Assembly (NCBI RefSeq): GCF_022808855.1
Contig: NZ_JAKZLF010000002.1
Coordinates: 124,001 to 188,000, forward strand
Length of the DNA: 64,000 nucleotides
Source of the DNA: Anaeromyxobacter soli
GTDB lineage: Bacteria > Myxococcota > Myxococcia > Myxococcales > Anaeromyxobacteraceae
Direction: 5' to 3'
Numbering within the stretch: the first letter of the stretch is position 1; each line of letters starts with the position of its first letter. Positions 1 through 35,887 of the stretch are shown one piece after another. Under the pieces are notes generated by a model. It saw nothing but the letters and a program-made list of their open reading frames with translations, was not told the origin of the DNA and did no database searches. Both the position numbers and the translations under genes were made by a program.

Positions 1-1816
1 CCGCCACCGCCCGGGCGAGCGCGTCGCTCACGTTCGCGAGCTGCGCGACCACGCGCTCCCGCACCGCCGGCGTCTGCACCTTCGTGAGCTCGAACCGGAA
101 GGCCCGCACGATGTGCGCCTGCTCCATCTCGGACTGGCTCTCCCAGAACAGCGTGGCCTGCGTGTAGTGGTCGGCGAACTTCTCGGGCTTGCCGCGCACC
201 TTGTCCTCCGGGGTCGGATCGGGGAACGAGGTGAAGCCCGCCGCGGCGCCGACCTGGAACGGGCAGCCGCCGGCGAGCGAGTTGGGCTCGTACGCCACGC
301 GCCCCCGGTGGATCGCCTGCCGGTGCATCCCATCGCGCTGACCGTTGTGCACCTGCGCCACCGGGGCGTTGATGGGGATCTCGTGGAAGTTCGGCCCGCC
401 CAGGCGCGAGATCTGCGTGTCGACGTACGAGTGGATGCGGCCGGCGAGGAGGGGATCGTTCGAGAAGTCGATCCCGGGCACGACGTGCGCCGCGCAGAAG
501 GCGACCTGCTCCGTCTCGGCGAAGAAGTTGTCCGGGTTCCGGTTCAGCACGAGCCGCCCCACCGGGCGCACGGGCACGAGCTCCTCCGGGACGATCTTGG
601 TCGGGTCGAGGACGTCGAACGAGAACCGGGCGGCCTCCTCCTCTGTGAAGAGCTGGACGCCCAGCTGCCACTCGGGGAACTGCCCCGCCTCGATGGACTC
701 CCACAGGTCCCGGCGGTGGTAGTCGGGATCGGCCCCGTTGATCTTCACGCACTCGTCCCAGTCGAGGGAGTGGGTCCCGCGCACCGGGCTCCAGTGGAAC
801 TTCACGAACCGTGACTCGCCCGCGGCGTTGACGAACCGGAACGTGTGCACGCCGAAGCCCTGCATCATGGAGTAGCTCCGCGGCAGCGCGCGGTCGCTCA
901 TGACCCAGAGGAGCATGTGCGTCGACTCGGGCATGAGCGACACGAAGTCCCAGAACGTGTCGTGCGCGCTCGCCGCCTGCGGCATGCCGTGGTGAGGCTC
1001 GGGCTTCACCGCGTGGACGAAGTCCGGGAACTTGATCGCGTCCTGGATGAAGAACACCGGCATGTTGTTGCCGACCAGATCGAAGTTCCCCTCGTCCGTG
1101 TAGAACTTCACGGCGAACCCGCGCACGTCGCGGGCGAGGTCCGCCGAGCCGCGCTCCCCCGCGACCGTCGAGAAGCGCACGAAGACCGGGGTGCGCTTGC
1201 CCTCCTCCGCCAGGAACGACGCCCGGGTGACCTCGGTGAGGGCCTCGGTGCACTCGAAGAACCCGTGCGCGGCCGAGCCTCGCGCGTGCACGATGCGCTC
1301 GGGGATCCGCTCGTGGTCGAAGTGCGTGATCTTCTCGCGGAGGATGAAGTCCTCCATGAGCGTGGGGCCGCGCAGCCCCGCCTTGAGCGAGCTCTGGTCG
1401 TCGGCGATCGGAACGCCCTGGTTGGTGGTGAGTCCCCGGTCGGTGGAGTCCACCCGGACGCGGTCGAGCGGCAGGTTGCCTGGATTGACGCCGAGTCTCT
1501 CCTGCGGCTTGCCCCGCCCCACCTTGGCGGACGAGACCGCCTCGCTGAGCGTGCTGCCGGTCGCGGCCACGTCCCCCGGCGGCACGTGCGCGCCCTCCGG
1601 CGGATTGCGCGCGAGGGCGCCGTGCTCGGCCTTCTTGTTGGCGTTGAACGGCATGGCGGCGGCGAGCGCGTCGGTCGCGGCCAGCTTCGCGGCGAGCGCG
1701 TCGTCCGCTCTGGCAGCGGAGGTTCCTCGCCGTGACCCGCTCACCGTGGAGCGGGCGGACGCCTTGGCGGTGGACTTCTTCGGCGGCGGGGACGGCTTCC
1801 TCGGCTTGGCGGCCAT
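1..1816 (-). CDS. katE: Large-subunit catalase (KatE/HPII type), 3' end cut by window edge
   Basis: Haem catalase that dismutates hydrogen peroxide in the cytoplasm. About 605 residues are visible from an ATG at 1816; the C-terminus lies outside the window. The first ~50 residues are a Lys/Pro/Ala-rich extension, then the catalase core. The active-site His is in [11 protein letters not shown] (about residue 177), the distal Asn in [14 protein letters not shown] (about 250), and the proximal haem Tyr in RIHSYVDTQ. The long N-terminal region before the core places it with large-subunit (clade 2) catalases such as HPII; the flavodoxin-like C-terminal domain expected for that clade would be off the edge. 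It is transcribed away from the Pat-like gene across a 326-nt divergent gap. Function is secure; clade assignment is inferred from the N-terminal extension. Confidence 0.95.
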
Positions 1817-2142
1817 GCGCGGTACTCCCGGGTGCGGGTCCCGCTCGGCAGCTGGCGCCCGGGGCCGGGGCGGCGACTGCGCGTGCGGTGTCCTCAACTT
1901 CGGTCCGCCACCCCCGCGGCGGTAGCGCCGACGCCACCACGGGCGCGCAGTCGCCGCGGCGGTGTGCCGCGGAGCGGCCCCCGCCGCCACCTCGCCCGGC
2001 GAGGCACGGAGCGCAGCTTCGCTTTGCACCTCGGGGAGACAGGCTGCGTCGAGGGCGCGAGCCCGCCTTCGAAGGGGTGTTGGCCACGCCCCCGAGATCT
2101 GGCCCGCCGCGGCGGCGCCGTCGGAGGTAGCATCGCGGGAGC
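1817..2142. other. Divergent intergenic region, no gene seen
   Basis: 326 nt between the divergent catalase and Pat-like genes. It must hold both promoters but I see no convincing -10/-35 pair, hairpin or repeat. No reading frame here resembles a protein. Confidence 0.4.
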
Positions 2143-4578
2143 GTGCGCCCCCACCCGTTCGAACGTGTCTTCGCTCCCCGCGCCATCGCGGTGTTCGGGG
2201 CCGACGGCCAGGAGTCGGCCGGCCATCGCATCCTCCGGAACGTGGTCGCGGGCGGGTTCGCGGGGCCGGTCCACGTCATCGGCGAGCCGGCGGAGTGCCC
2301 GGCCGGCGTGCGGCGCTGCGCCTCGCTCGCCGAGGTGGAGGGCGAGATCGACCTCGCCATCGTGGCCTCGCCCGCCGCATCGCTTCCCGAGGTGGTGCGC
2401 GCGTGCGCGGCGCGCCGCGTCGGCGGGGCCGTGATCGCTCCCCCGGCGTCGGGCGCGACCGGCCGCGCGGCGCTCGACGCGGGCGCGGTCCGCGCGCTCC
2501 TCGCGGAGGCCGCGCGAGGCGGTCTGCGGCTCCTCGGGCCGAACAGCGTCGGCCTCATCCGGCCGGCCGCGCGGCTCAACGCGACCCTCACGAACGGGGG
2601 CGCGTCTCCCGGGTCCATCGGGCTCGTCTCGCAGTCCGGCGCGATCTGCGCCACCGCGCTCGACTGGGCGGCGGCGCACCGGGTCGGGTTCTCGGCGGTG
2701 GTGTCGCTCGGGGACGCGCTCGACGTCGACTTCGGCGAGGTGCTCGAGTACCTCGCGCTCGACCGCGCCACGAAGAGCATCCTCCTCTACCTCGAGACGA
2801 TCCGCTCCGCGCGCGCGTTCCTGAGCGGCCTGCGCCTCGCCGCGCGCCTCAAGCCCGTCGTGGTGGTGAAGGCGGGTCGCCACGGCGCGGGGGCGGGCAG
2901 CGCGTCGTCGGACGACGCCTTCGACGCCGCGCTCGCGCGCGCCGGCGCCGTGCGGGTCGGCTCGATGGACCAGATGTTCGCCGCCGCGCGGCTCCTCGGG
3001 ACCCCGCGCCCCGTGAGCGGCAACCGGCTCGCCGTCGTCACGAACGCCCGCGGGCCCGGCCTGCTCGCCGCCGATCGCGCCGCCGAGCTCGGCGTGGTCG
3101 TCCCGCCGCTCGCCGACGCGACCTGGCGGGAGCTCGACGCGCTCCTGCCGGCGGCGTGCTCCCGCTCGAACCCGCTCGACCTCCTCGACGACGCCGATCC
3201 CGCGCGCTACCGGATCGCGGTGGAGCGCTGCCTCGCCGATCCCGACGTCGACGCGGTGCTCGCCATGCTCGCCCCGCTCGCGCGCGCGCAGCCGGCGGGC
3301 GCGGCCGACGCGGTCGTCGCGGCGAGCCAGGGCCGCTCGAAGCCGATCGTGGCCTGCTGGATGGGCGAGGAGCTCGTGCGGAGCGCCCACGCGCGCTTCC
3401 TCGAGGCGGGCGTCCCGGACTTCTCCTCGCCGGAGGCGGCGGTGGACGGGTTCGCGCTCCTCGCGAGCCACGCGCGCAACCAGCGCCTGCTCCGGCAGGT
3501 GCCCGGCCCGCTCGCCCCCGACGCGATCCCGCACCTCGACCGCGCCCGGGAGATCGTGCAGGCGGCGCTCGCGCGCGGGCGCGACCGGCTCACCGGCGCG
3601 GAGCTGCGCCGGCTCCTCGCGGCCATCGGCATCCGCGATCGCGACTCCGCCGGGCAGCGGGTGAGCGGGACCGAGCTGTACGTCGGCGTCGCCCGCGACG
3701 CGGTCTTCGGGCCGGTGATCCGCTTCGGCCGGGGGGGACCCTCCGGGCTCGCCGGCGAGGCGGTCGTCGCGCTCCCGCCCCTCGACACGGCCATCATCCA
3801 GACCCTCGTGCGGACGAGCCGCATCGCCTCCGTGTTCACCGCCGCCGGCGGGATGACCGCGCGGGAGGTCGCCGCGTTCGAGCGCACGCTCTGGGCGGTG
3901 TCCGCGATCGTGAGCGAGCTGCCCGAGCTGCGTGAGCTCGAGATCTCGCCCCTCGTCGTGGCGGACGACGACGTCTACGCGTCCGGCGCGCGGACCTCCA
4001 TCGCGCCCGCCCTCCCGGAGGCGGGGCGGTACGGGCACATGGCGATCCACCCGTACCCGACGGACGTCGGCGCGCGCTGGCAGCTCCCCGGAGGCGTCAC
4101 GGTCTCGGTGCGGCCCATCCGGCCGGAGGACGCGGAGATGGAGGCGAGCTTCGTGCGCAACCTCTCCGACAACGCGCGCCACTTCCGCTTCATGATCGCG
4201 CTGAAGGAGCTCACCCGGGAGATGCTCATCCGGTTCACGCAGATCGACTACGACCGCGAGCTCGCGCTCGTCGCCCTGGTCGAGCGCGAGGGGAAGGAGA
4301 CGCAGATCGCGGTGGCGCGCTTCATCAAGGCGGACCCCGAGACCGCCCACGTCGCGATCGTGGTCGCCGACGCGTGGCAGGGGAAGGGGATCGGCGCGCG
4401 GCTGCTCCGGATGCTCATCGCGGCGGCGCGCGCGCGGGGGATCCTCCGCCTCGAGGGCGAGGTGCTGCACGAGAACACCACCGCGCTCGAGCTGATGGCG
4501 CGGGTGGGGTTCTCGATCCGCCGGGACCCCGAGAGCCCCGACCTCTGCCTCATCGAGATGAGCCTGACGGGCGCGTAG
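2143..4578 (+). CDS. Pat-like protein acetyltransferase: degenerate NDP-forming acyl-CoA synthetase fused to GNAT
   Basis: 811-residue fusion. Residues ~1-130 are a Rossmann CoA-binding domain ([13 protein letters not shown]), ~140-450 a succinyl-CoA ligase-like region ([29 protein letters not shown]), ~455-600 the end of an ATP-grasp domain, and ~645-805 a GNAT acetyltransferase with the acetyl-CoA loop [12 protein letters not shown]. In working ADP-forming synthetases the catalytic His lies in a GHxGA/SHTGAL loop; here that stretch reads [13 protein letters not shown] with no His. The ATP-grasp lacks its nucleotide-binding N-terminal part: the sequence jumps from [11 protein letters not shown] to [15 protein letters not shown]. 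As in Salmonella Pat, the synthetase part is therefore probably a sensor or regulatory domain and the GNAT is the active part, acetylating lysines of acyl-CoA synthetases such as the one at 12769-14472. GTG start preceded by GGGAG. Convergent with etfA. Confidence 0.85.
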
Positions 4579-4581
4579 CGA

Positions 4582-5535
4582 TCACCTCAGCTTCGCCTGC
4601 AGCTCCGGCAGCGCGGGGAAGAGGTCGGCGACGAGGCCGTAGTCCGCGATCTGGAAGATGGGCGCGTCGGGGTCCTTGTTCACCGCCACGATCACCCGCG
4701 ACCCCTTCATGCCCGCGAGGTGCTGGATCGCGCCGGAGATGCCGGCCGCCACGTAGAGCTCCGGCGCGACCACCTTCCCGGTCTGCCCGACCTGCCAGTC
4801 GTTGGGCACCCACCCGGCGTCGACCGCGGCGCGGGTCGCGCCGACCGCGGCGCCGAGCGCGTCCGCGAGCGCCTCGACCGGCCTGAAGTCGCCCTTCGTG
4901 CCGCGGCCGCCCGCGACGATCGTGCGCGCCTCCGTCAGCTCGGGCCGCGCGCTCTTCACCTCCACGAAGCCGAGGTGCCGGGTCCGGAGGCTCGCGGCGT
5001 CGACCGCGACCGGCGCCCGCCGGAGCTCGCCCTGCCCTTCCCTCGGCGCCGCCGCGAACTCCGTGGGGCGCACCGTGAACACCTTCACGGGCGTCGTGAT
5101 CTCCACCTCGGCGAGCACGTTCCCCGCCCACATCGGCCGCCGGAACGTGAGGTCGCTCCCCTCTCCGCCGAACCCGACGACCTCCGTCGCCATGCCGGCC
5201 TCGAGCCTCGCCGCGACGCGCGGCAGCACGTCCTTCGCGACGGCGGTGGCGGCGGCGCCGACGAGGGTCGACCCGGTCGCCCGCGCGAGGTCGGCCACGA
5301 CCGGCGCCCACGCCTCCGCGAGGGGGTGCTCGAGCACGGCCGCGTCCGCGACGTGCACCTCGACGCCGTGCGCGGCGAGCTCCGCCGCGGCCGCGTCGAT
5401 GCCGCTCCCGAGGAGCGCGGCGGCGAGCCTGCCCCCGGTCCGCCTCGCCAGCTCGCGCCCGGCCGAGAGCGCGTGGAGGGACGCCTTCCGGAGGTGTCCC
5501 GCGTGCTGCTCCGCCACGATGAGCACGTTCGCCAT
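4582..5535 (-). CDS. etfA: Electron transfer flavoprotein alpha subunit
   Basis: 317 residues, normal length for EtfA. N-terminal half has the ETF alpha/beta fold ([19 protein letters not shown]); the C-terminal FAD domain (~200-310) carries the signatures [30 protein letters not shown] and [18 protein letters not shown]. With EtfB it forms the soluble flavoprotein that takes electrons from acyl-CoA dehydrogenases and passes them to the quinone pool. It follows etfB after 9 nt and has ATG preceded by GGGGG. The nearby acyl-CoA dehydrogenase and IcmF operon is a natural electron donor. Confidence 0.96.
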
Positions 5536-32591: not shown

Positions 32592-32747
32592 CTACCGCTG
32601 CGCTGCCGGATCCCCGGCGGGCCGTGGCAGCAAGTCTGCGAACGTGAAGCCGTCGCGCTCGACCACCTCTCCAGCGGCGACCGGGATGGGCTCCTCGCCG
32701 AGCTCCCGGCGACGGTGGCTCCTCTCGGCCTCCACGGCGCCCCTCAT
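32592..32747 (-). CDS. 51-aa ORF coupled to nrdG
   Basis: The ATG at 32747 overlaps the nrdG stop as ATGA, as the other genes of this operon overlap each other. The 51 residues begin MRGAVEAERSHRRREL and continue with GEVVERDGFTFADLLPRP: a basic helical start and an acidic/hydrophobic end with no membrane segment or Cys. Codon use is like that of its neighbours. It may be a small partner of NrdD/NrdG, but no function can be claimed from sequence. Confidence 0.55.
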   Translation of the reverse strand: MRGAVEAERSHRRRELGEEPIPVAAGEVVERDGFTFADLLPRPAGDPAAQR

Positions 32748-33427
32748 CTCACGGAGAGCGTCAGCCCGTGCGCCGCGGCCGCGTGCCCCGCCGCCGCGAG
32801 CAGTCGCTCGTCCGGGGGCGCGAGCCCGCATCCGTCGTCGAGGTGGCCGCCCGGGCGGAAGCGCTGGACCGCCCAGCGCTGCGCGCCGGCCGCGAACGCC
32901 GCCAGGGCGTCGAGCTCGCCGGCGTCGTGGACGGGGGAGGCGAGCGTCGTCCGCACCTCGTGCTCGATCCCCGCCGCCAGCGCGAGCTCGAGGCAGCGGC
33001 GAGCCCCGAAGGGCTGCTCGGCCGAGCCGGTCAGCCACTCCGCGGCCTGGGGCAGCGCCTTCAGATCGACGGCCAGGAAGTCGACGAGCCCCGCCGCGAG
33101 CAGCGCCGCGACCACCTCCGGCCGCGTGCCGTTCGTGTCGAGCTTCACCGCGAACCCGCGCGCCTTCACCCGCGCCAGGAACGGCGCCAGGCCCGCGTGC
33201 AGCGTGGGCTCGCCACCGGTCACGACGAGCCCGTCGAGCCGCCCGCGCCGCGCCTCGAGGAGCGCGAGCACCTCGCCCTCCGGCACGGGTCGCGCCGCCG
33301 TGGCCGCGAGCAGCGACGGGTTGTGGCAGTAGCGGCAGGCGAGGTTGCAGCCCTGCGTGAAGACGACGGCGGCGAGCCTCCCGGGCCAATCGACGAAGGA
33401 GCAGGGCCGCAGGGCCGCGATGATCAA
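32744..33427 (-). CDS. nrdG: Anaerobic ribonucleotide reductase activating protein (radical SAM)
   Basis: 227 residues. Radical-SAM cluster motif CNLACRYC (CxxxCxxC) in FTQGCNLACRYCHNP, SAM-binding VVTGGEPTL, and VKLDTNGT. It makes the glycyl radical on NrdD under anaerobic conditions. The N-terminal RPCSFVDWPGRLAAVVF is typical for NrdG-type activases of NrdD. The likely start is TTG 33427, giving LIIAALRPCSF and a TTGA overlap with the nrdD stop; longer frames upstream run antisense-like through nrdD. Confidence 0.92.
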   Translation of the reverse strand: MIIAALRPCSFVDWPGRLAAVVFTQGCNLACRYCHNPSLLAATAARPVPEGEVLALLEARRGRLDGLVVTGGEPTLHAGLAPFLARVKARGFAVKLDTNGTRPEVVAALLAAGLVDFLAVDLKALPQAAEWLTGSAEQPFGARRCLELALAAGIEHEVRTTLASPVHDAGELDALAAFAAGAQRWAVQRFRPGGHLDDGCGLAPPDERLLAAAGHAAAAHGLTLSVR

Positions 33428-35532
33428 GCGGGCACCTCGGCGGCGTCGCCCGGGCGGAGCGACAGGCGCCGCTCGAACTCGGCCTGCTTGCCCGCGTTCC
33501 ACTGCTGCAGGGGGCGGAGGTACCCGACGATCCGCGAGTAGACCTCGGCGGCGGCGCCGCACCGCGGGCAGGTCGGGTGCTCACCGGCGAGGTACCCGTG
33601 CTCGCCGCACACGGAGAACGTCGGCGTGACGGTGAAGTACGGGAGCCGGTAGCGCTCGCACACGGTTCGCACGAACCTCTTCACGGTCGAGGGGTCGTCG
33701 ATGGCCTCGCCGACGAAGACGTGCTGGACGGTCCCGCCGGTGTACCGCGCCTGGAACTCGTCCTGGTGATCGAGCACCGCGAAGACGTCGTCGCTCGCGT
33801 CCACCGGGAGCTGGGAGGAGTTCGTGTAGTACGGTGCGGCGCCCCGGACGGCCGCGTCCTCGTTCGCGCAGCGGATGCCCGGGTGGCGCGCCTTGTCGAG
33901 CCTGGCGAGCCGGTAGCTCGTCGCCTCGGCCGGCGTCGCCTCCAGGTTGAACCGGCTGCCCGTCTCCGCCTGGTACTGCTCGAGCCGAGCGCGCATGTGG
34001 TCGAGCACCCGGAGCCCGAAGGCGCGACCGGGCCCGCTCGCGAGCGTCGTGTCGAGCAGGTTGTCGGCGGCCTCCGCGAGCCCGACGAGGCCGATGGTGG
34101 AGAAGTGGTTGCGCCAGTACGAGCCGCTCCGGGCGCGGATGTGGCGCAGGTAGTGGCGGACGTACGGATAGAGGCCCTGCTCGGTGTAGCGCTCCAGGAT
34201 CTTCCGCTTGAGGACCAGGCTGTCGCGGGCGAGGTCCATGACCCGGTCCAGGCGAGCCATGAAGTCGGCCTCGTCGCGCGCGAGGTGGCCGAGGCGCGGC
34301 AGGTTCACGGTGACGACGCCGATGGACCCCGTGAGCGGGCTCGCGCCGAAGAGGCCGCCGCCGCGCCGCTCGAGCTCGCGCGTGTCGAGGCGGAGGCGGC
34401 AGCACATGCTGCGGGCGTCCTCCGGCGAGAGCTCCGAGTTCACGAAGTTCGCGAAGTACGGGAGGCCGTACCGGGCGGTGACCTCCCAGAGGCGATCGAG
34501 CCGGGGGTCCTCGTAGTCGAAGCCGGGCGTGACGTTGTAGGTGGGGATCGGGAACGTGAAGACGCGCCCCTTCGCGTCGCCGCCGGCCATGACGTCGAGG
34601 AAGGCGCGGTTGAACAGGTCCATCTCCGCCTGGAACTCGCCGTACGTGGCCGCCTGCCGCTCGCCCCCGAGGACGATCGCCTCGTCGCGGAGCAGCGCGG
34701 GGCACTCGAGGTCGAGGGTGACGTTCGTGAACGGCGTCTGGAACCCGACGCGCGTCGGCACGTTGAGGTTGAAGACGAACTCCTGGAGCGCCTGGCGCAC
34801 CTCCTCGTAGCCGAGCCCGTCGTGCCGGATGAACGGCGCGAGGTACGTGTCGAGGCTCGAGAACGCCTGCGCGCCCGCCGCCTCGCCCTGGAGCGTGTAG
34901 AAGAAGTTCGCGATCTGGCCGAGGGCGGTGCGGAAGTGGCGCGCCGGCGCGCTCTCGGCCTTCCCGGGCGCCCCTCGGAACCCCTCGGTGAGGAGGTCGG
35001 CGAGATCCCAGCCGACGCAGTAGACGGCGAGGAGGTTCAGGTCGTGGAGGTGGAGGTCGCCCGAGCGATGGGCGTCCCGCACCTCGGGCGGATAGAGCCG
35101 CTCGAGCCAGTAGGTGGAGCTCACGTGGCTCGCGACGTAGTTGTTGAGGCCTTGCAGGCTGAACGCCATGTTGGCGTTCTCGGCCACCTGCCAGTCGGAG
35201 CGCTCCAGGTAGGCGTCGACGAGCGCCACGCTGGCCGTGTCGGAGATCTCGCGCAGCGCGCGGTGCTGCTCGCGGTAGACGGCGTACGCCCGCGCCGTGC
35301 GCCGGTACGGGCTCGCGAGAAGCACCTCCTCGACGACGTCCTGGATCCGCTCCACCGACGGCCGGCCCTCGATCGTAGCGATCGCGATGGCGAGGACGCG
35401 CTGGCAGAGCCGCCTCGCCTCGGGCGCGTCGACCTCGCCGGTGACGGCCCCCGCCTTGGCGATGGCTCGCTGGATGCGCTCGGCGTCGAACGGGACCACC
35501 CGTCCGTCGCGCTTCTCGATGGTCTCGAACAC
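33424..35532 (-). CDS. nrdD: Anaerobic (class III) ribonucleoside-triphosphate reductase
   Basis: 702 residues. ATP-cone allosteric domain ~1-95 (IEKRDGRVVPFDAERIQRAI), the ten-stranded barrel core (AENANMAFSLQGLNNYVASH, SSPLTGSIG-like region, MCCRLRLDTREL), the C-terminal zinc site (FSVCGEHGYLAGEHPTCPRCG) and the glycyl-radical loop SRIVGYLRPLQQWN near the end. It makes deoxyribonucleotides without oxygen. GTG start at 35532 with GAGGAGGG just before it; that ribosome binding site lies in a hairpin (35533-35573) controlled by a cobalamin riboswitch further upstream. Confidence 0.95.
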   Translation of the reverse strand: MFETIEKRDGRVVPFDAERIQRAIAKAGAVTGEVDAPEARRLCQRVLAIAIATIEGRPSVERIQDVVEEVLLASPYRRTARAYAVYREQHRALREISDTASVALVDAYLERSDWQVAENANMAFSLQGLNNYVASHVSSTYWLERLYPPEVRDAHRSGDLHLHDLNLLAVYCVGWDLADLLTEGFRGAPGKAESAPARHFRTALGQIANFFYTLQGEAAGAQAFSSLDTYLAPFIRHDGLGYEEVRQALQEFVFNLNVPTRVGFQTPFTNVTLDLECPALLRDEAIVLGGERQAATYGEFQAEMDLFNRAFLDVMAGGDAKGRVFTFPIPTYNVTPGFDYEDPRLDRLWEVTARYGLPYFANFVNSELSPEDARSMCCRLRLDTRELERRGGGLFGASPLTGSIGVVTVNLPRLGHLARDEADFMARLDRVMDLARDSLVLKRKILERYTEQGLYPYVRHYLRHIRARSGSYWRNHFSTIGLVGLAEAADNLLDTTLASGPGRAFGLRVLDHMRARLEQYQAETGSRFNLEATPAEATSYRLARLDKARHPGIRCANEDAAVRGAAPYYTNSSQLPVDASDDVFAVLDHQDEFQARYTGGTVQHVFVGEAIDDPSTVKRFVRTVCERYRLPYFTVTPTFSVCGEHGYLAGEHPTCPRCGAAAEVYSRIVGYLRPLQQWNAGKQAEFERRLSLRPGDAAEVPA

Positions 35533-35573
35533 GGGCCCTCCTCGTGGCGGCCTCGGGGCACGGAGGAGGACCC
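35533..35573 (-). promoter_or_regulatory. Hairpin sequestering the nrdD ribosome binding site
   Basis: On the minus strand GGGUCCUCCUC (35573-35563) pairs with GAGGAGGGCCC (35543-35533) over all 11 positions, one a G-U pair, with a 19-nt loop. The second arm contains the Shine-Dalgarno and ends at the base before GTG. An alternative partner, GGAGGGUCC (35618-35610), can pair with GGGUCCUCC instead, freeing the site. This looks like the expression platform of the riboswitch. Confidence 0.6.
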
Positions 35574-35672
35574 GAGCACACGACGGCCCGTACGAGGGCA
35601 GTGCGCCGAGGACCCTCCGCCCTCCCACGAGGCGTGTCGGTCGTGCCGCCGCCCGAGCATCCGGGCGACGGT

Positions 35673-35850
35673 CGCTGGCAGGTCTTCGGGCTCGCGAGCG
35701 CTCCGGGGCTTCCCGGACCCTACTGTCCGCCGCTTCCCAGCCGAACCGGCCAGTGCGTGTGGCGGAGGTCGTTCTCGCTTACCGCTGCGGGGCAGCCCCG
35801 GAATCTCACCGGGTTCCCTATTCGCTCGGAGCGAACCCCGAGCACCAGCG
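35673..35850 (-). promoter_or_regulatory. Cobalamin (B12) riboswitch aptamer upstream of nrdD
   Basis: Minus-strand sequence carries the conserved blocks of AdoCbl riboswitches in order: GGGAACCCGGTGAGATTCCGG, then GGCTGCCCCGCAGCGGTAA, then CACTGGCC, and GAAGACCTGCC at the 3' end (35687-35677). Outer helix P1 can form from CGCTGG (35850-35845) and CCAGCG (35678-35673). It lies between a good promoter (35859-35887) and nrdD. The consensus is GCCACUG for the B12 box; the match is good though not perfect. Ligand binding would normally repress downstream genes. Confidence 0.85.
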
Positions 35851-35858
35851 CGAGACCC

Positions 35859-35887
35859 AACCTATGGTGGTTCACGGTCACGGTCAA
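35859..35887 (-). promoter_or_regulatory. nrdD operon promoter
   Basis: TTGACC (35882-35887), 17-nt spacer, TAGGTT (35859-35864) on the minus strand, placing transcription start just before the riboswitch P1 helix. This is the best sigma-70-like promoter I see in the window. Confidence 0.6.

Follow-up and report, generated by a model that had tools for sequence, protein, structure and literature searches.

A predicted adenosylcobalamin riboswitch in the leader of the class III ribonucleotide reductase operon nrdDG of Anaeromyxobacter

The class III ribonucleotide reductase operon nrdDG of an Anaeromyxobacter genome is preceded by a cobalamin aptamer, and judging from its sequence and that of its relatives the leader is very probably a btuB-like class I adenosylcobalamin (AdoCbl) riboswitch, which would repress translation of nrdDG when AdoCbl is plentiful and so govern the choice of reductase isozyme. 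The leader lies on the minus strand of the window, by which we mean the whole 64-kb stretch of DNA that was analysed, and genome-wide statements derive from profile searches of the 5.3-Mb, 100%-complete genome of origin (G000, of the same genus as G003). Read along the minus strand, the order of elements is TTGACC, a spacer, TAGGTT, a full-length cobalamin aptamer, an expression platform of ~130 nt and the GTG start codon of nrdD at 35532.

The AdoCbl riboswitch proposed in the initial annotation was recovered by the cobalamin covariance model. A search with Rfam cmscan returned RF00174 at 35864-35660 (minus strand) as the sole Rfam match within the window; this full-length match covers model positions 1-189 and scores 110.4 bits, well above the gathering threshold of 31.5, at an E-value of 8.6e-27. 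The P1 helix, which had been described as closing the aptamer, begins at 35851 and its partner strand ends near 35670. Several of the aptamer helices show compensatory changes across five genomes, and comparison of relatives shows that the aptamer core, the L5 and L13 loops and the elements of a downstream Shine-Dalgarno (SD) hairpin are nearly invariant while the spacers diverge. The B12 box, GCCCGAAGACCUGCC (35677-35691, minus strand), is a variant that is unlike the GCCAGGAGACC-type box of the two other cobalamin riboswitches in the source genome. These two also carry CACUGU and CCAGGAGACC in place of the GCAGCGGU and AGYCCGAARACCUGCC that are common to the nrdD riboswitches of the clade containing Anaeromyxobacter NrdD. 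The CAGCGGU/CCCGAAGACCUGCC core of the nrdD aptamer presumably resembles that of Escherichia coli btuB. We class the nrdD leader as a predicted class I adenosylcobalamin riboswitch, ligand binding being likewise a prediction.

At the 5' end of the aptamer match stands a promoter-like pair (35859-35887, minus strand), whose hexamers, TTGACC at 35887-35882 and TAGGTT at 35864-35859, and 17-nt spacer are those given in the initial annotation. A strict sigma-70 consensus scan of the leader did not report this pair because the -10 hexamer matches the consensus at only three of six positions. Comparison of leaders showed that TTGACC and TAnGTT are kept in five genomes with diverged flanks, and the pair is retained as a putative promoter on these grounds of conservation only. 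If TAGGTT is the -10 element, transcription is predicted to start at ~35853-35850, in the 5' strand of P1 (first P1 base, 35851). The best candidate for an NrdR box ahead of the promoter had 10/16 matches by simple identity and was not convincing.

Directly downstream of the riboswitch, nrdD (33424-35532, minus strand) encodes a class III ribonucleotide reductase of 702 aa, identified by NCBIfam models TIGR02487 (545 bits, cut-off 326, E 1.5e-163) and NF006126 (1020 bits) and by a C-terminal glycyl-radical motif, RIVGY, at residues 667-671. It is followed by nrdG (32744-33427, minus strand), which encodes an NrdG2-type activase (TIGR02495, 172 bits, E 6.6e-51) and likely starts at a TTG codon. 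These NCBIfam matches bear out the assignment of both genes. The nrdD stop and this likely nrdG start overlap as TTGA, and nrdG is therefore probably translationally coupled to nrdD. In Anaeromyxobacter terrae SG22 (G003) the nrdD gene (L090, C99:53035-54754) is split between two frames near its 3' end in the assembly, through either an error of sequencing or a genuine frameshift.

Between P1 and the start codon the platform holds three hairpins. The first (35646-35671) is GC-rich, with 11 bp that include two G-U pairs, has no U-tract and is partly compensated across genomes. It is followed by P13 (35618-35634), with the stem CGCCU/GGGCG and the loop CGUGGGA (L13, 35629-35623). This stem covaries in relatives, its pairing being kept through versions such as GCCU/GGGC, GCCG/CGGC, ACCUC/GAGGU and UGCUUU/AAGGCA, while the loop sequence CGNGGG is constant. 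The L5 loop of the aptamer, CCCCG (35788-35792), is a predicted kissing partner of L13. Seventeen sequences of this aptamer type, with differing target genes, combine CCCCG in L5 with CGNGGG, in which each of U, A, C and G occurs at N. The two loops are complementary in all 17, matching in silico as C-G, C-G, C-G, a bulged N, C-G and G-C. Two nrdD leaders from Desulfobacterota have UCCCG in L5 and CGAGGA in the loop, a compensating C-G to U-A change that counts as one event because these leaders are sisters in the tree. In these Desulfobacterota leaders only 10-20 nt separate P13 from the start codon, and the 3' strand of P13 continues into an SD-like sequence (AGGAAAGGAG in L041), suggesting a simpler one-step design.

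The third hairpin contains the SD of nrdD. Its anti-SD arm, CGGGUCCUCCUC (35563-35574), faces an SD arm, GAGGAGGGCCCG (35532-35543), in which the SD core GGAGG lies 4 nt before the GTG. Within these arms GGGUCCUCCUC (35573-35563) pairs with GAGGAGGGCCC (35543-35533) over 11 bp, as had been claimed, or 12 if the G of the GTG is included, and the duplex of the source leader is stronger than those of shuffled leaders (z -2.4, fraction 0.024). The corresponding duplex exceeds the shuffle mean in 5/5 leaders (z -2.4, -0.75, -1.8, -2.3 and -2.75), for which no combined probability is given because the leaders are related; it is barely above chance in G003, and in G010 the anti-SD is in a shifted register.

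The conserved SD hairpin and the lack of a terminator would fit a translational riboswitch, in which formation of the hairpin would depend on the aptamer. An alternative is that the main output is transcriptional, with the ligand promoting Rho-dependent termination or mRNA decay and not direct masking of the SD. The leader is long (~320 nt), and SD masking commonly feeds Rho action. There is also the example of Propionibacterium acnes, in which transcription of nrdAB largely ends before the first gene within a cobalamin-riboswitch leader (PMC3848588). A terminator scan, however, found no intrinsic terminator in the nrdD leader, and the conserved hairpin sits right at the start codon, so we consider such an output unlikely.

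Opening of the SD hairpin could be achieved by more than one pairing. The initial annotation had put forward a 9-bp alternative, GGAGGGUCC/GGGUCCUCC, and this does exist in the source genome, between 35618-35610 and 35573-35565, with seven Watson-Crick and two G-U pairs. It is not, however, among the stems of at least 7 bp in four relatives, where the segment reads GGAUGGUCC or GGAGGUCCC, and so its conservation did not stand up and it was rejected as the main switch. An overlapping pairing, between GGGAGGGC (35619-35626, comprising L13 and the 3' strand of P13) and GUCCUCCU (35571-35564), is possible in a 7-8 bp version in 5/5 leaders. We regard this anti-anti-SD as the likelier switch, and a role for the 9-bp pairing as improbable. 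A further pairing, CCUCGUGG/CCACGAGG, reaches 8 bp in three genomes and was set aside because it is lost in G010 and G031. When the platform was folded in isolation, the predicted ON fold lay 6-12 kcal/mol above the SD-masked OFF fold in every leader and was thus not the energy minimum; the switch would therefore have to act co-transcriptionally.

Under the preferred model of direct SD masking, binding of AdoCbl would allow the L5-L13 kissing loop to lock P13, making GGGAGGGC unavailable to the anti-SD. The free anti-SD would then mask the nrdD SD, and production of both NrdD and NrdG would fall. With AdoCbl absent, GGGAGGGC would pair with GUCCUCCU during transcription and the SD would be freed. 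B12-replete cells would accordingly rely on two class II reductases (NrdJ), and anaerobic cells starved of B12 or cobalt would turn on the class III enzyme.

The gene content of the source genome fits such a division of labour. Class II ribonucleotide reductases need B12 and are active with or without oxygen, while class III enzymes do not need B12 and are active only without oxygen. The genome encodes two NrdJ proteins, of 927 aa (TIGR02504, 581 bits) and 595 aa (654 bits), so that another reductase is indeed present, and a profile search of this complete genome found no class I small subunit (NrdB, PF00268). Class II is therefore the alternative to class III, and repression of class III by AdoCbl makes sense in view of the cofactor and oxygen needs of the two classes. 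The gene for the shorter NrdJ is at L007 5389-7176 (contig C16 of G000), and many family members carry both forms. In addition to the nrdD leader, the source genome has two cobalamin riboswitches, one preceding a cobalt-uptake and B12-synthesis locus (CbiM, CbiX, CbiD and CbiC) and one preceding an uptake locus, where the gene for a TonB-dependent receptor is accompanied by periplasmic-binding and FecCD permease genes. Within the family, riboswitches of the cbiM loci (L096-L100, L008) have a possible start codon 1-13 nt after the aptamer, the first codons of which specify a conserved peptide, ~MPxACGxPGAEIARR, and the regulatory hairpin may sit inside this reading frame.

We examined whether the riboswitch was associated with NrdJ across genomes. 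Profile searches detected nrdD in 7/79 genomes of the order. A cobalamin riboswitch lies directly upstream and on the same strand in five of these (G000, G003, G010, G011 and G031), which have in common the putative promoter, the aptamer, P13 with its L5-complementary loop and the SD-sequestering hairpin, and was absent upstream of nrdD in G032 and G041. All five riboswitch genomes have NrdJ; G032 and G041 are without any PF02867 enzyme. Rfam scans of ~75 further nrdD loci outside the order detected an upstream cobalamin riboswitch in eight, from Vicinamibacteria, Desulfobulbaceae, Phycisphaerae, Desulfobacterales, Opitutales, UBP4, Anaerolineae and Eubacteriaceae. The riboswitch of L039 did not enter this count, since it lies downstream of nrdD and belongs to a different gene. 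Among 53 genomes, NrdJ scored above the cut-off in 12/13 with the riboswitch versus 13/40 without, an association (Fisher p 2e-4) that is inflated by kinship. The thirteenth riboswitch genome has an NrdJ score of 395.9 against a cut-off of 399.95. A test of independent pairs on the tree gave a trend in the same direction that was non-significant, the informative pairs (2.6-3.1 on average) being too few.

A quick tree places Anaeromyxobacter NrdD within an 11-row clade (SH-aLRT 96). In this clade plus G003, NrdJ is present in 9/9 riboswitch genomes, and the three members without the riboswitch (L014, G032 and G041) have no NrdJ. Within family f1, nrdD is patchy (4/24 genomes), and these four are the only genomes where a riboswitch carries the variant B12 box; the riboswitch was therefore probably not copied from resident B12 loci, and appears to have come and gone together with nrdD. 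Outside the clade, nrdD riboswitches (L058, L072, L086 and L089) belong to other aptamer types, which suggests independent origins. We tentatively propose, at a confidence slightly below even, that riboswitch and nrdD form a cassette inherited as one, in which the riboswitch has been kept only alongside a class II reductase and the platform works in two steps, with P13 carrying the anti-anti-SD and the kissing loop containing one freely varying bulged base. A rival reading sees in the riboswitch a passenger, decaying or without function, that was inherited with a horizontally acquired nrdDG. The patchy occurrence of nrdD would fit, as would the nearest outgroup, a Vicinamibacteria MAG whose aptamer is of the same type, but this reading is very unlikely in view of the near-invariance of the aptamer core, L5, L13 and SD-hairpin elements amid diverging spacers, and of the absence of the aptamer from each of the three clade members that have no NrdJ.

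Cobalamin riboswitches were also observed before other genes. In Myxococcaceae, the same variant type precedes a two-gene unit (L102 in G066, 1642-5034; also L106, L110 and L115) that encodes a class III (omega-type) aminotransferase-like protein and an L-glutamate gamma-semialdehyde dehydrogenase-like aldehyde dehydrogenase, both below curated cut-offs; such a unit is an unusual target for a cobalamin riboswitch. In one genome of this family class I nrdAB itself directly follows a cobalamin riboswitch (L109, G072 C1:8331373-8335180); by coordinates, no riboswitch adjoins nrdA in any of the remaining 24 genomes with a class I enzyme.

In Streptomyces, the class Ia reductase operon nrdABS is under a B12 riboswitch and is repressed by B12, with NrdJ present in the genome. 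The target differs from that in Anaeromyxobacter, being class Ia instead of class III, but both are B12-independent reductases in genomes with NrdJ. The initial annotation cited Streptomyces as the documented precedent, and this is a valid case but not the only one, since riboswitches ahead of nrdDG itself were predicted in 2004 (PMC545781) and annotated in 2013 (PMC3848588). For Desulfovibrio vulgaris and Desulfuromonas, Rodionov et al. (2004) predicted B12-elements before nrdDG; they recorded NrdJ in every delta-proteobacterium studied and proposed the same repression of an isozyme (PMC545781). The Anaeromyxobacter locus has in common with these the former class (delta-proteobacteria), a class III operon behind a B12 riboswitch and NrdJ in the genome, but belongs to a Myxococcota lineage, and its expression platform is here resolved with comparative support. 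The nrdDG leader of P. acnes was likewise annotated with a cobalamin riboswitch, NrdJ, encoded elsewhere, being proposed to take over; the interpretation is the same, although this organism is an actinobacterium that, unlike Anaeromyxobacter, has a class I nrdAB under a riboswitch of its own (PMC3848588). The Anaeromyxobacter locus therefore joins an already known arrangement and does not represent a new class of regulation. We add a structural refinement, a correlation with NrdJ and evidence for joint inheritance of the riboswitch and nrdD, providing a comparative case of cofactor supply guiding the choice among interchangeable ribonucleotide reductases. In close relatives the riboswitch comes and goes with NrdJ, as the isozyme-switch idea predicts, and this prediction can be put to the test.

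A mechanistic parallel for the expression platform is E. coli btuB, in which the kissing loop stabilises P13 and promotes the SD hairpin (PMC10653944). The nrdD leader is similarly predicted to be of the translational type, with P13 and a predicted kissing loop that would promote an SD-masking hairpin. Its target is a B12-independent isozyme, where that of btuB is a transporter, and its predicted L5-L13 kiss has one bulged base. The predicted two-step design of this leader is clear enough to be amenable to mutational tests.
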